From NCBI GenBank assembly GCA_025210615.1, contig JAOARJ010000002.1, forward strand, positions 124,001-188,000: a stretch of DNA of 64,000 bases. Direction: 5' to 3'. The DNA is from Candidatus Altimarinota bacterium (GTDB taxonomy: Bacteria; Patescibacteriota; Gracilibacteria; BD1-5; UBA6164). Shown one piece after another: positions 50,830 to 55,692 of this stretch (positions are counted from its first letter, which is position 1; each line of letters starts with the position of its first letter). The translations under genes and the position numbers were made by a program. Under the pieces are notes generated by a model. That model was given only the letters and a program-made list of their open reading frames with translations, made no database searches and had not been told where the DNA came from.

Positions 50830-51235
50830 AAATATCGAAAACATATTCAATCAAACAAACTATAAATCAAAAATAGACAAGCAAAAGAAAAATGAAATCA
50901 GACATTTTTTAATGATAGAAGCTGAAAAAATGAATAAAAAATCTAAAAAAATCTGTGTTTTTAAATTTATTTGAGCTACTGGACTTGCTTTTGTTTTTAG
51001 TTTATTTTTGTTGAATATAAATTTAATTATTTGAGATTTTTGATGAAATAAAACCGATATAACAAATAAAGTCAATATAGAAAAAATCGCTTACAAAAAG
51101 TATTTATGAAACAACAAAAGTATTTCTATATTAAATTCTGATAAAATTGAATCTGAAAAATTACTTTATAAAGTGAGGAAAAGTAAACAAAATTTTCAAA
51201 AATTAAATACAATGGCGTTCAATTATCAAAAATAA
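50822..51235 (+). CDS. membrane protein overlapping the sigma gene, probable anti-sigma factor
   Basis: 137 residues; overlaps the sigma gene by 8 nt, typical of translational coupling. Cytoplasmic part about 1-45 (KSKIDKQKKNEIRHFLMIEAEKMNKK), one membrane helix (about 50-72: FKFIGATGLAFVFSLFLLNINLI), then a charged extracytoplasmic tail. That topology and position match anti-sigma factors of ECF systems; no zinc (ZAS) motif HxxxCxxC is visible, so the identity rests on context. Confidence 0.65.
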
Positions 51236-51253: not shown

Positions 51254-51281
51254 TTGACAATAAAAAAATATTTTATATATT
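51254..51281 (+). promoter_or_regulatory. promoter of the aro/asp operon
   Basis: TTGACA (51254-51259), 16 nt, TATATT (51276-51281). Predicted transcript starts near 51288, leaving a 200-nt leader before the first structural gene. Confidence 0.65.
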
Positions 51282-51314
51282 AAACAGTAGTTTTTAAAGA
51301 TTAATTTATTTGAA

Positions 51315-51380
51315 ATGAATATTTTGAATATTACATCTCCTGCAGTTAACTTTTATTTTTACTTCTTTACTAAAACATAG
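51315..51380 (+). CDS. aromatic leader peptide of an attenuator
   Basis: A 21-codon frame, ATG 51315 to TAG 51378-51380. Residues 13-18 are Phe-Tyr-Phe-Tyr-Phe-Phe (TTT TAT TTT TAC TTC TTT, 51351-51368), preceded by Asn-Ile-Leu-Asn-Ile-Thr-Ser-Pro-Ala-Val-Asn. Its stop codon overlaps the first strand of the antiterminator (51378-51386). Six consecutive aromatic codons match the logic of phe/tyr leader peptides: when charged Phe/Tyr-tRNA is scarce, the ribosome stalls there. No strong SD is visible. Translation is inferred, not shown. Confidence 0.75.
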   Translation: MNILNITSPAVNFYFYFFTKT

Positions 51381-51460
51381 TAGAGGTGTTTAAATAGGTC
51401 TTAAAAACTAAATCAAAAAACTTAACCAAACTCCCCTACTAAAAAGTACGGGAGTTTTTA
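51378..51460 (+). promoter_or_regulatory. transcription attenuator (antiterminator/terminator)
   Basis: Strand 2: TAGTAGAGG at 51378-51386. Strand 3: CCCCTACTA at 51433-51441, complementary to strand 2 with one mismatch. Terminator: AAACTCCC (51428-51435) with GGGAGTTT (51450-51457), extended by TAC / GTA, followed by a T5 tract. Strand 3 is shared, so the two structures exclude each other. A ribosome stalled on the aromatic codons leaves strand 2 free (read-through); one at the stop codon covers it (termination). This arrangement is the textbook attenuator. Confidence 0.75.
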
Positions 51461-51488
51461 TTTAATTTAATTACATAACTATAAAATT

Positions 51489-52283
51489 ATGCATTTATGA
51501 AAAGAAATTAGATTATCAAGAATAATCAATCCAGTAAGTAAAAAAACTATTATCGTACCTATGGACCATCATTGAACTTGAATTGTTCCAATTAAATGAA
51601 TAGAAGATCCTGCTATTTTATCAGAAAAATTAGTAAACGGTTGAGCTGATGCTATTTTAGCTCATACTTGAACACTTAAACATTGATTTGCGAAAACTTG
51701 TATCTGAAAATGAGCTGGCTCTATATTACATATGTGCGTAACTAGCTGACTAAGCCCAAAGCCAAATAGAAAAATGATAGTTAATACTTTAAAAACAGCA
51801 ATTACTATGTGAGTTGATGCTGTTTCTACTCAATTAAATTTATGAGATGAAAACGAAAATGAAATGATACAAGATTTAGCTCTCCTAGCTAATGAATGTA
51901 ATGAATGGTGAATACCTTTAATCGCTATGGTATATGTTAGGTGACACGATTTAAAAGAGGTTGATTTAGATAATTTAAAGCTGTCAGCTCGTATTGCTAG
52001 TGAACTTTGATGTGATATGGTGAAAATTCCTTACATTTGAAATTCTAAAGAAATGGAAGAGATTGTTAATTCTACTCAAATACCTGTTGTAATAGCTTGA
52101 GGAAGTAAAATGTCAGATATTGAAACTTTAGAAATGATTTCTGGAGCTATGGAGGCTGGATGTTCTTGACTAAGCGTTTGAAGAAATGTTTTTGCTAGAA
52201 AAAATCCTGAAGAATTCTTAAATATCGTTAAAAAAATCGTTCACGAATGATTAAACCTAGAAGAAGCAAAAAAAATGTTATAA
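51489..52283 (+). CDS. 2-amino-3,7-dideoxy-D-threo-hept-6-ulosonate synthase-like (AroA') class I aldolase
   Basis: 264 residues. (beta/alpha)8 aldolase of the archaeal FbaB/AroA' family: IVPMDHHGTGIVPIKGIED, LAHTGTLKHGF, MVYVRGHD, CDMVKIPYIGN (Schiff-base Lys), VVIAGGSKMSD and GLSVGRNVFARKNPEE. Condenses aspartate semialdehyde with a six-carbon ketosugar phosphate to start the archaeal shikimate route, or with DHAP in the GriI/3-amino-4-hydroxybenzoate route. Identity is based on the family plus the following DHQ-synthase-II gene. Preceded by the attenuator. No SD. Many glycines are TGA. Confidence 0.85.
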
Positions 52284-52307: not shown

Positions 52308-53306
52308 ATGAAAAAATTATTCTACTTAAAAATAAATAAATTTGATAAAGAAATTATTACAACGGCTATTGAATCTTGAGTTGATGCAATTCTCGCTCCT
52401 GATGAAATAAAAGATAAAATAAAACAATTAGCTATTATAAAAGTTATTTCAAAAAATGGAGATTTAAAAATTTGAAAAGATATTGAGATAAAAAAGATAA
52501 CTAAAAAAGCTGATGAAGATGCGATAGTAAAATTATGATGAAAAATCCCAGTAATAATAGAAAATTTAGACTGGACAATTATTCCTCTTGAAAATCTATT
52601 ATCTAAAACAACAAATATAATTCAATCAGTAAATAATTCAAAAGAAGCTGATTTAGCGTTAGAAACTATGGAAAAGTGAGCTAGTTGAATTTGTCTTGAA
52701 ACTACTGATTTAAATGAAATTAAAAAAACAGCTAAAATAATTTGAAAAAACAGTAGTGTAAAAATGAGCTTACAAGAAGCAGAAATAATAGAAACTAAAC
52801 AAACAACTTTGGCTTCTCGTTGTTGTATAGATACGGCTTCTATGTTAAATCCTGGAGAATGATTATTAGTTTGAGATTGAAGTTCTGGAATGTTTTTAGT
52901 TTATAATGAAAATGTTGAGTCGCCATATTGTGATACTAGACCTTTCAGAGTAAATGCTTGATGAGTTCATGCTTACGTTATGTGCCCTGGTAATAAAACA
53001 AAATATTTATGAGAAGTAAAAAGTGGAGATGAAGTATTAGTAGTAAATCCAAAATGAGAAACTTCTGTAGCTGTTGTTGGCAGAAATAAGATAGAGAAAA
53101 GACCTATGATGCTAGTTAGAGCTAAAGTTTGAGATAAAGAATTTAGCTTAATAATGCAAAATGCTGAAACAATAAGACTTACTGATATAAAATGAAATCC
53201 TATCTCGGTTACTAAATTAAAACCAGGAGATAAAGTTCTCGCTCACGTTGAAAATCAGGCTAGACATTTCTGAGTAAAAATAGAAGAAACTATAGAAGAG
53301 CAATAA
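52308..53306 (+). CDS. 3-dehydroquinate synthase II-like (AroB')
   Basis: 332 residues. Family landmarks: GVDAILAPDE near the start; LEKGASGICLETTD; the conserved [83 protein letters not shown]; and the C-terminal GVKIEETI. In archaea this NAD-dependent enzyme turns the AroA' product into 3-dehydroquinate; its homologue GriH makes 3-amino-4-hydroxybenzoate. 24 nt after aroA', 21 nt before aspartokinase. Confidence 0.88.
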
Positions 53307-53327: not shown

Positions 53328-54674
53328 ATGGAGAAAGTTATAATAAATAAATTCGGGGGCGAAATTATGTGAACCCCCGAGTTAAATAAACTGCTGTTAA
53401 ATCATATAAAAGAGCAGAAAAATTCTGGAAATAAAATTATTGTAGTTTGTTCAGCTTTGACAAAAGTTACTGATACTTTAATAAACTGAGTAGATGAAAT
53501 TGTCAAATCTAACTCAATTAAAAAAATAGATATTTTATGTGATAATTTATTTGAAATACATATAAATCATATAAAAAAAATATTAAATAATAAAAAAAAT
53601 ATTCTAAAATTAGAAGAAATAATTTCTGGTGAATTAAAGCAGTTAAAAGATAGTTTAAAATTTATTCTAGATTTTTGATATGTTGATTTTGTTACATCTA
53701 AAATAATTTCATTTTGAGAAAAATTATCAACTCATATTATAAAATTTTATTTGGAAGAAAACAATATAGAAGCCAAAAGATTTACATGAGAAGAATTAGG
53801 AATAATTACTGATAATAATTATGGGGATGCTAATATTAATTATGATTTATCTAAAGAAAAAGTTAAAAAAAATTTGGAAAATAATAAAAATATTGTAAAT
53901 ATTATCGCTTGATTTACTTGAATTGATAATTTTTGAAGAACGACTATTTTATGAAGATGAGGAACTGATACAACAGCTTGTTTTATTTGAAGTGTTCTGA
54001 AAGCAGATAAAGTTATTTTATGGAAAAATGTAGAATGAGTTTTAACAAGTGATCCCAGAATAGTAGAAAATACTAACACTATAAAAATCCTTGATTATGA
54101 TGAAGCTGAAGAGTCTTGAAAAGTTGTATGTAATAAAGCTATCACATACTTAAAAAATCATAACTCGCCTATGGAAGTCGCTTTTATAAAGAATAAAAAT
54201 ATATTTACAAAGGTTTGTAATAAAAAAGATTTATCTAAAAAAGTAAAATTATTATCTTATAAAAAAGATTGTAGTTTATTAAAAATAAAGAGTGAAAGAA
54301 TGACAAAATCAGGTTTTTTATATAACATTTCTGCTATTTTTGAAGAATTAAATATAAATATGAGTTTTATCAGAAATACTAGAGATACAATGTATATTTC
54401 TATTGATAATAATCAGAAAAATTTAGAAAAATTATTTCAAAATCTAGAGAAAATTTGCTCACTTGAAAAAAATAACTGTTCAATGATAAATATTATTTGA
54501 AATTTAAATTGGGATTTAGCTATGGAAGTGAATTTACAATTGAAAAAAATTTCAAAAAACTTGCAAATATGAGTTTTTCCTCATGAAAATTGTTCGCGTT
54601 TAGAAGCTATTGTTGATAATAATGAGTTAGAAAAAATTTTAAATCACTTCCATCAAATATTTATTAATACATAA
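53328..54674 (+). CDS. lysC: aspartate kinase
   Basis: 448 residues. Phosphorylates aspartate to feed aspartate semialdehyde synthesis. KFGGEIMGTPE at the N-terminus (the usual KFGGTSV), VVCSALTKVTD, the IIAGFTGIDNFGRTTILGRGGTD(T)TA nucleotide/Asp-binding stretch, ADKVILWKNVEGVLTSDPRIV and a C-terminal pair of ACT-like domains (MTKSGFLYNISAIFEELNINMSF). ACT domains suggest feedback control by an amino acid. Glycines mix GGN and TGA. Only 4 nt before asd. Confidence 0.9.
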
Positions 54675-54678
54675 AATT

Positions 54679-55692
54679 ATGAAAAAATATAATATCGCTA
54701 TTGTATGAGCCTCTTGAGCTGTTTGAATAGAAATAATAAATTGTCTAGATAATCTAAAAATTCCAGTAAATAATTTAAAATTATTAGGTTCTAAAAGGTC
54801 TGCCTGAAATATTCAACAAACTCCTTTTTGAGATATAAAAATAGAATTATTAGATGAAAATTCTTTTAAAAATATAGATTTTGCATTATTTTCAGCTGGA
54901 TGAAAAATTAGTGAAAAATTCGCTCCTATCGCTGTAAAATCTTGAGCAAGGGTAATTGACAATTCTTCTCATTTTAGATATGATAAAAATATTCCTCTAA
55001 TAGTTCCTGAAATAAATTCTGGTGAAATAAAAAACGCTAAAATTATAGCAAATCCAAATTGTACAACCGCTATAGCTTCAGTTGCATTATTCCCTATTTA
55101 TAAGCATTTTTGAATTAAAAAAATTATTATATCAACCTATCAAGCTACAAGTTGATGATGAGCAAAAGCGATGCAAGAGTTAATTGATTCTACAAAAAGT
55201 TATTTAGATTGACAAGAATTTCAAAATAAAGTTTTTTCTCATAATATAGCATTTAATTTAATCCCTCATATTGATAATTTTTGTGAAAATGATTATACTA
55301 AAGAAGAAATGAAAGTTACCTGGGAAACTCAAAAAATTTTTTGAGATGAAAATATAAAAATAAGTTGTACAGCCGTGCGTATCCCTACTATTAGAGCGCA
55401 TAGTGAGAGTGTTACTATAGAAACAGAAAAAGAAATAAATCCTCAAGAAGTAAAAAATTTACTTAAAAAATCCCCTTGAGTAAAGGTTGTTGATAATATT
55501 AAAAATAATACTTATCCAATGCCAAAAACAGCAACTTGAAAATATGACATAGAAATATGAAGAATTAGACAAAATTTAGTCTTTTGAAAAAAATGACTTG
55601 ATTTATTTATAAGTGGTGATCAATTACTAAAATGAGCAGCACTAAATGCAGTACAAATATTAAATGAAATAATAAAAACTCACTTAAATTAG
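54679..55692 (+). CDS. asd: aspartate-semialdehyde dehydrogenase
   Basis: 337 residues. Reduces aspartyl phosphate to aspartate semialdehyde, the substrate of the AroA' aldolase. GASGAVG nucleotide motif (9-15), [24 protein letters not shown], the catalytic Cys128 in [25 protein letters not shown], and [17 protein letters not shown]. With aspartokinase this supplies the semialdehyde on site, so the four-gene operon is self-contained from aspartate plus a sugar phosphate. Its stop lies inside the terminator. Confidence 0.95.

Follow-up and report, generated by a model that had tools for sequence, protein, structure and literature searches.

The leader in front of the ADTH-synthase/DHQ-synthase-II operon of a Candidatus Altimarinota bacterium is very likely a ribosome-mediated transcription attenuator. 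We put the probability of this reading at about 0.88, and there are no expression data. The operon lies in a stretch of 64,000 nucleotides (the window; contig JAOARJ010000002.1). We consider the reading very probable because the parts of an attenuator are present, they are rare in the genome, and the design, including the 2:3 pairing, recurs in three other members of the class (G134, G135, and G144). By its testable features the element is of a known kind, the classical leader-peptide attenuator; its setting is undescribed in the part of the literature that we searched.

Parts of the leader and the proposed switch

The following features were located in the leader.

51254..51281, + strand: sigma-70-type promoter, TTGACA-N16-TATATT, score 11/12
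51315..51380, + strand: leader peptide frame of 21 codons, MNILNITSPAVNFYFYFFTKT, with ATG at 51315 and stop codon TAG at 51378-51380
51351..51368, + strand: aromatic run of six codons, TTT TAT TTT TAC TTC TTT (Phe-Tyr-Phe-Tyr-Phe-Phe)
51365..51372, + strand: strand 1, CTTTACTA, overlapping the final aromatic codons (minimum-energy fold)
51378..51388, + strand: strand 2, starting at the stop codon; TAGTAGAGG is 51378-51386
51430..51441, + strand: strand 3, complement of strand 2 and also the 5' arm of the terminator; CCCCTACTA is 51433-51441
51428..51457, + strand: 3:4 intrinsic terminator hairpin, AAACTCCC...GGGAGTTT, -14.0 kcal/mol, with a U-rich tail to about 51463

The original prediction, made from the sequence alone, had named the promoter, the 21-codon frame, its six aromatic codons, the stop in strand 2, strand 3, and the terminator, and all of these held at the positions it gave. 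Its description of five T at the terminator also held, with the detail that they begin within the stem, so that the free tail reads TT-A-TTT. Strand 1 had not been listed. It was found in the minimum-energy fold, in which 51365-51372 pairs with TAGTAGAG (51378-51385) in a 1:2 hairpin. Because strand 1 also exists, the leader has the complete classical set of 1:2, 2:3, and 3:4 pairings. Strand 2 (51378-51386) and strand 3 (51433-51441) form eight of nine possible pairs, and the 3:4 stem joins 51428-51435 to 51450-51457. The fold of the whole 184-nt leader had a z-score of -3.5, and 0 of 200 shuffled sequences folded equally well. The presence of these parts and their pairing are shown.

In the window's genome, sequences of the form TTGACA-N15-18-TATAWT had about 19 times the density in intergenic DNA that they had in coding DNA (34 in 185 kb versus 10 in 1024 kb), and another gene (L032) is preceded by the same promoter block. 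No Shine-Dalgarno sequence was found 5' of the leader frame, and the same was true for 948 of the 965 gene-length ATG frames (≥120 codons) of the genome. Since a Shine-Dalgarno-like sequence stands before just 17 of these 965 frames, its lack is no argument against translation of the leader. The leader frame contains no TGA and therefore reads identically under code 25 and the standard code.

The proposed mechanism is inferred in several respects: that the frame is translated, that this translation is coupled to transcription, that transcription terminates, in which direction the switch responds, and which amino acids it senses. RNA polymerase would start just 3' of 51281, and a ribosome would translate the small frame close behind it. 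With charged Phe-tRNA and Tyr-tRNA available, the ribosome would clear the six aromatic codons, reach the stop within strand 2, and cover this strand. Strands 3 and 4 would then pair, and the U-tailed hairpin would terminate transcription near 51460. Under a shortage of charged tRNA, the ribosome would halt in 51351-51368 with strand 1 covered and strand 2 free. The 2:3 pairing would then form and block the terminator, and the four genes of the aspartate-semialdehyde/ADTH route to dehydroquinate would be transcribed. Tuning by Phe- and Tyr-tRNA charging, as originally predicted, is supported as a reading; sensing and coupling are still inferences.

Rarity in the genome and recurrence in the class

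Two chance screens covered 97% of the genome (1.21 Mb). The first counted small frames with at least five consecutive aromatic codons outside same-strand long frames, and found 103 of them. A terminator-like hairpin lay 3' of just two, and the 2:3 pairing was present in the window frame only (-12.5 kcal/mol, versus -2.1 kcal/mol for the other terminator-bearing frame). The second screen was blind to the peptide: terminator-like hairpins preceding genes were collected, and pairing of a small-frame stop region with the terminator arm was then sought. Such hairpins preceded 82 genes and the pairing was found at four, the top two being the window leader and a paralogous leader at C4:27.1 kb. The rarity of the combined parts in the genome is shown. 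The paralogue (L033; G000:C4:27116-27312, minus strand) keeps strands 2, 3, and 4 and has a Phe-Tyr-Phe run in its peptide, MNNSLRTLIKFYFTDNQ. Its downstream gene encodes a 229-residue protein without a Pfam match, and we have no explanation why this gene should respond to aromatic supply.

These counts bear on a first alternative explanation: the hairpin would merely end the transcripts of the upstream gene, or be a 5' terminator without regulation, and the aromatic frame would have arisen by chance in AT-rich DNA. TTT and TAT are indeed frequent in such DNA, and the genome has 103 small frames with aromatic runs. However, a single one of the 103 has both a terminator and the 2:3 pairing, and it precedes an aromatic-pathway gene, as do three homologues of unrelated sequence that precede the orthologue. 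Moreover, the promoter sits between the leader and the upstream gene, which ends at 51235, and the hairpin lies about 190 nt past the upstream stop codon. We regard this explanation as very unlikely.

The original prediction could have been refuted by a lack of conservation in relatives, and this test was run. Among the 353 genomes of the class set, eleven have a close orthologue of the aldolase gene that follows the leader. A leader was found in three of these besides the window's genome.

G135, Candidatus Gracilibacteria McD1.9: leader peptide MNTNRFYFYGFYFWIT, then stop
G134, Candidatus Peregrinibacteria bin10060: leader peptide MKKMTWYFGFFFYA, then stop
G144, Candidatus Gracilibacteria PL25b_bin.48: leader peptide VILSQKQAFWGFYFYYFSS, then stop; GTG start

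In each, the orthologous gene follows an aromatic-run frame whose stop lies within or next to strand 2; strands 2 and 3 can form the antiterminator, and strands 3 and 4 a terminator with a U tail. The frame and the pairing design therefore recur, and the prediction was not refuted. Sequence identity to the window leader is not recognisable in these leaders while the design is shared, which is the pattern that selection on an attenuator predicts. This recurrence with different sequence before the orthologue is shown. Aromatic codons make up 7-8 of the 14-19 codons of the three frames, and the final one lies 1-2 codons from the stop, versus 3 in the window. In comparison with dinucleotide shuffles, the 2:3 pairing gave p = 0.047 in the window (-10.6 kcal/mol; marginal), 0.004 in the paralogue, 0.002 in G135, 0.06 in G134, and 0.0005 in G144, and the combined Fisher p for the five leaders was 2e-7. 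The strand 2 of G135 and that of G144 each fitted its own strand 3 far better than those of the other leaders. The 1:2 hairpin is clear in G134 as well.

Both positions of the ribosome were simulated by folding the leaders with the ribosome-covered RNA removed. With the ribosome on the stop codon, the terminator formed in 5/5 leaders. With the ribosome stalled mid-run, the 2:3 pairing formed in G134, G135, and G144. The stall-mode fold of the complete window leader retained the terminator, and 2:3 was obtained only before strand 4 was made. With the terminator at -14.0 kcal/mol and the less stable antiterminator at -10.3 kcal/mol, antitermination in the window would hinge on folding order.

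The predicted setting in a code-25 group held only in part: the three comparators use the standard code, and within the code-25 order the element was found in the window's genome only. In the remaining seven of the eleven genomes, namely G127 and six members of family f10, no such leader stands before the gene. An aromatic frame in G127 (L011) was excluded from the count as a product of the terminator U-tract that runs nearly into the gene. A DNA search with the leader in all 77 genomes of the order gave no convincing second copy in the 76 others; besides the window and its paralogue, the matches inspected (8 loci) were short, AT-rich, mostly inside gene-length frames, without an attenuator, and chance-like. 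Leaders were also absent from the 30 scanned loci of prephenate dehydratase genes of the class, from the scanned loci of distant aldolase homologues of the phylum (wider set), and, by reading, from the region 5' of this genome's own prephenate dehydratase operon.

The operon and its relation to known attenuators

The four genes that the original prediction placed behind the leader were confirmed and identified as an archaeal-type ADTH/DHQ route.

51489..52283, + strand: ADTH-synthase-type aldolase of the DeoC/DhnA family (aroA'), PF01791, 20 TGA codons read as Gly
52308..53306, + strand: 3-dehydroquinate synthase II (aroB'), PF01959 390.6 bits, NF002627 above cut-off, 17 TGA codons read as Gly
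53328..54674, + strand: aspartate kinase, TIGR00657 above cut-off, 15 TGA codons read as Gly
54679..55692, + strand: aspartate-semialdehyde dehydrogenase, TIGR01296 above cut-off, 19 TGA codons read as Gly

The aldolase scored 283.9 bits with NF005556 (above the cut-off of 241) and 267.8 bits with TIGR01949 (below the cut-off of 299.45). In total, 71 TGA codons are read as Gly in the four frames, and code 25 is therefore correct. From general knowledge of these families, we take the operon to be the archaeal-type route from aspartate to dehydroquinate. By profile, ADTH synthase and DHQ synthase II place the operon in the aromatic pathway, yet the later shikimate genes went undetected: no shikimate dehydrogenase, chorismate synthase, or chorismate-binding enzyme was found in this 96%-complete genome. 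The same genome does have a prephenate dehydratase and an aminotransferase-like frame. Chorismate synthase was undetected in G135 and G127 too, though both have aroA', and was found in G134, G144, G141, and the code-25 family member G082. The missing genes may lie in assembly gaps, or the organism may exchange pathway intermediates; the leader does not discriminate between these possibilities.

The gap in the pathway raises a second explanation, namely that a once-working attenuator remains on a decaying or transferred operon, whose route ends at dehydroquinate and no longer serves the supply of aromatic amino acids. The absence of shikimate dehydrogenase and chorismate synthase from the 96%-complete assembly speaks for it. 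So do the facts that the operon is unique within the host's family and that the window aldolase is a very long branch in the aldolase tree. However, the leader is intact, and the four frames are intact and adapted to code 25 with their 71 TGA-Gly codons. In addition, the prephenate dehydratase and the aminotransferase-like frame are present, and the missing genes could be in assembly gaps. This explanation is very unlikely in our judgement.

Among the closest known relatives in design of the attenuator that we infer is the pheL/pheA-type Phe attenuator of gammaproteobacteria (RF01859, Phe_leader). The two share an aromatic codon run in a short frame, a stop adjoining strand 2, 2:3 and 3:4 hairpins that exclude each other, and a U-tailed terminator before an aromatic-pathway gene. 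Full-length matches (1-125) to Phe_leader were obtained for the G135 leader (L002; 31.3 bits) and the window leader (17.5 bits), both below the gathering cut-off of 55. Unlike that system, the window leader lies in a different phylum, would sense mixed Phe/Tyr (plus Trp in three homologues) rather than Phe, and would control ADTH synthase and DHQ synthase II instead of prephenate dehydratase. The trpL-type attenuators of Proteobacteria and the classical trp attenuators of Actinobacteria (PMC1262725) share the alternative-hairpin logic and the stop position with the window, and differ in amino acids sensed, genes controlled, and lineage. In bacilli, the His leader peptide that precedes hisS/hisZ (PMC2965389) is likewise such a system in another phylum, with histidine and different genes; according to its authors it was the first outside Proteobacteria and Actinobacteria, ermC aside, and they suggest that leader-peptide systems may emerge repeatedly (PMC2965389). 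In the T-box leaders of Firmicutes and Actinobacteria, tRNA charging also controls transcription via a terminator, but the tRNA is sensed directly, without a translated frame. The T-box covariance model gave no match in the window leader (Rfam matches with E up to 5).

Comparative papers place leader-peptide attenuators in Proteobacteria and Actinobacteria (PMC1262725), with the bacilli His case in addition (PMC2965389). The original prediction mentioned proteobacterial attenuators only, and these reports correct it in that the known systems extend beyond Proteobacteria. Its statement that no attenuator has been described in this group agreed with our partial literature search, in which no paper on a leader peptide or attenuation in Gracilibacteria, Patescibacteria, or the Candidate Phyla Radiation was found. 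The class holds further candidates, such as Trp-Trp leaders. A conserved leader of this kind was observed near chorismate-binding (trpE-type) genes of family f15 (L251, L252, L257, L258, L270, L271, L272, and L275), with the pattern H[QK]Y..RLGWWQ... and ends like ...RLGWWQALTQSAVR before the stop. Our scan detected a terminator for four of the eight f15 trpE-type loci. These leaders overlap a TrpR-box-like TTGTACCGGTGCATAAGTACA, and a sub-threshold Rfam scan of the loci gave no known family at the Trp-Trp leaders.

A third explanation is that the window terminator is governed by a protein, a riboswitch, a T-box, or general ribosome load, and not by aromatic tRNA charging. The overlap of trp-type leaders of the class with TrpR-box-like sequence favours it, as protein control may exist nearby. 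However, Rfam gave no T-box or riboswitch match on the window leader, and a ligand sensor needs no aromatic codon runs conserved over four genomes without conserved RNA sequence. We therefore hold this explanation to be very unlikely as well, and retain aromatic attenuation as the preferred reading.

Ribosome-mediated attenuation works only with a ribosome close behind RNA polymerase, and most documented cases come from Proteobacteria, Actinobacteria, and a few Firmicutes. The aromatic and Trp-Trp leaders with terminators in this Patescibacteria class suggest that its small-genome bacteria couple translation to transcription. They also suggest that these bacteria regulate amino acid pathways by tRNA charging.

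Aromatic frames before aroA' in Methanomicrobiales

At 54 of 56 Methanomicrobiales loci (L038-L097), aroA' is preceded by a small frame whose last 14 codons include five or more aromatic ones, compared with 1 of 294 other gene starts of those loci treated alike. The frame ends 35-77 nt 5' of aroA', within a leader region about 35-240 nt upstream; examples are YFGYFGYFA-stop and FSFYYRFYYWY-stop. The first paired base past the stop codon has a median offset of 1 nt. The post-stop hairpin was more stable than shuffles (mean z -1.55; 21/54 below -2), and it hides or abuts the aroA' Shine-Dalgarno, which was at least half paired in 28/53. For one archaeal group, the automatic consensus fold yielded no structure, since the aligned sequences were out of register. 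The hairpins were judged instead from folds of single leaders and from a test of each arm against its own and foreign partners. In this test, the 5' arm paired with its own 3' part at -14.3 kcal/mol and with foreign ones at -9.7 kcal/mol (permutation p = 2e-4, the minimum attainable with 5000 permutations). A few compensatory pairs were seen in the hairpin, in one group.

We propose that a ribosome stalled at the final aromatic codons would mask the 5' arm, so that the Shine-Dalgarno would stay free. The archaeal leader could thus be akin to a translational attenuator, a possibility for which function is not shown. In a bolder reading, towards which we lean slightly, the archaeal-type ADTH synthase gene is controlled by amino-acid-specific leader peptides in both Bacteria and Archaea, by a terminator switch in Patescibacteria and a translational switch in Methanomicrobiales. 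If this is true for the archaeal leaders, leader-peptide control of amino acid synthesis is not a bacterial speciality any more. The partial literature searched describes no archaeal leader-peptide attenuator that responds to an amino acid, and holds no paper dealing in substance with a leader peptide or attenuation in Methanomicrobiales. The aldolase tree leaves unresolved whether the leader-bearing Patescibacteria and Methanomicrobiales are sisters, and the window copy is a very long branch; for these reasons it is undecided whether leader and gene spread together or the leader evolved on two occasions. No comparable aromatic-rich frame was found in the scanned orthologues of Bathyarchaeota, Lokiarchaeota, Hydrothermarchaeota, Desulfobacterales, and Spirochaetes, and one weak 16-codon match was obtained at a Helarchaeota locus in the same scan.

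A motif like GGTGARTGTTTTT occurs near the start of the archaeal frame at 33 of the 55 loci examined, and by reading it is repeated two or three times in many of them. It may act as an operator or belong to the peptide. The repeats, seen in L039, L040, L052, L056, L061, L062, L089, and others, have an 18-nt period and directly follow a TATA-like box at about -250 to -190, at the 5' end of the leader frame. Finally, a contig labelled Bacteroidales (L037; JALONU010000028.1) carries a Methanomicrobiales-type aroA' with its leader, and is probably mis-binned.
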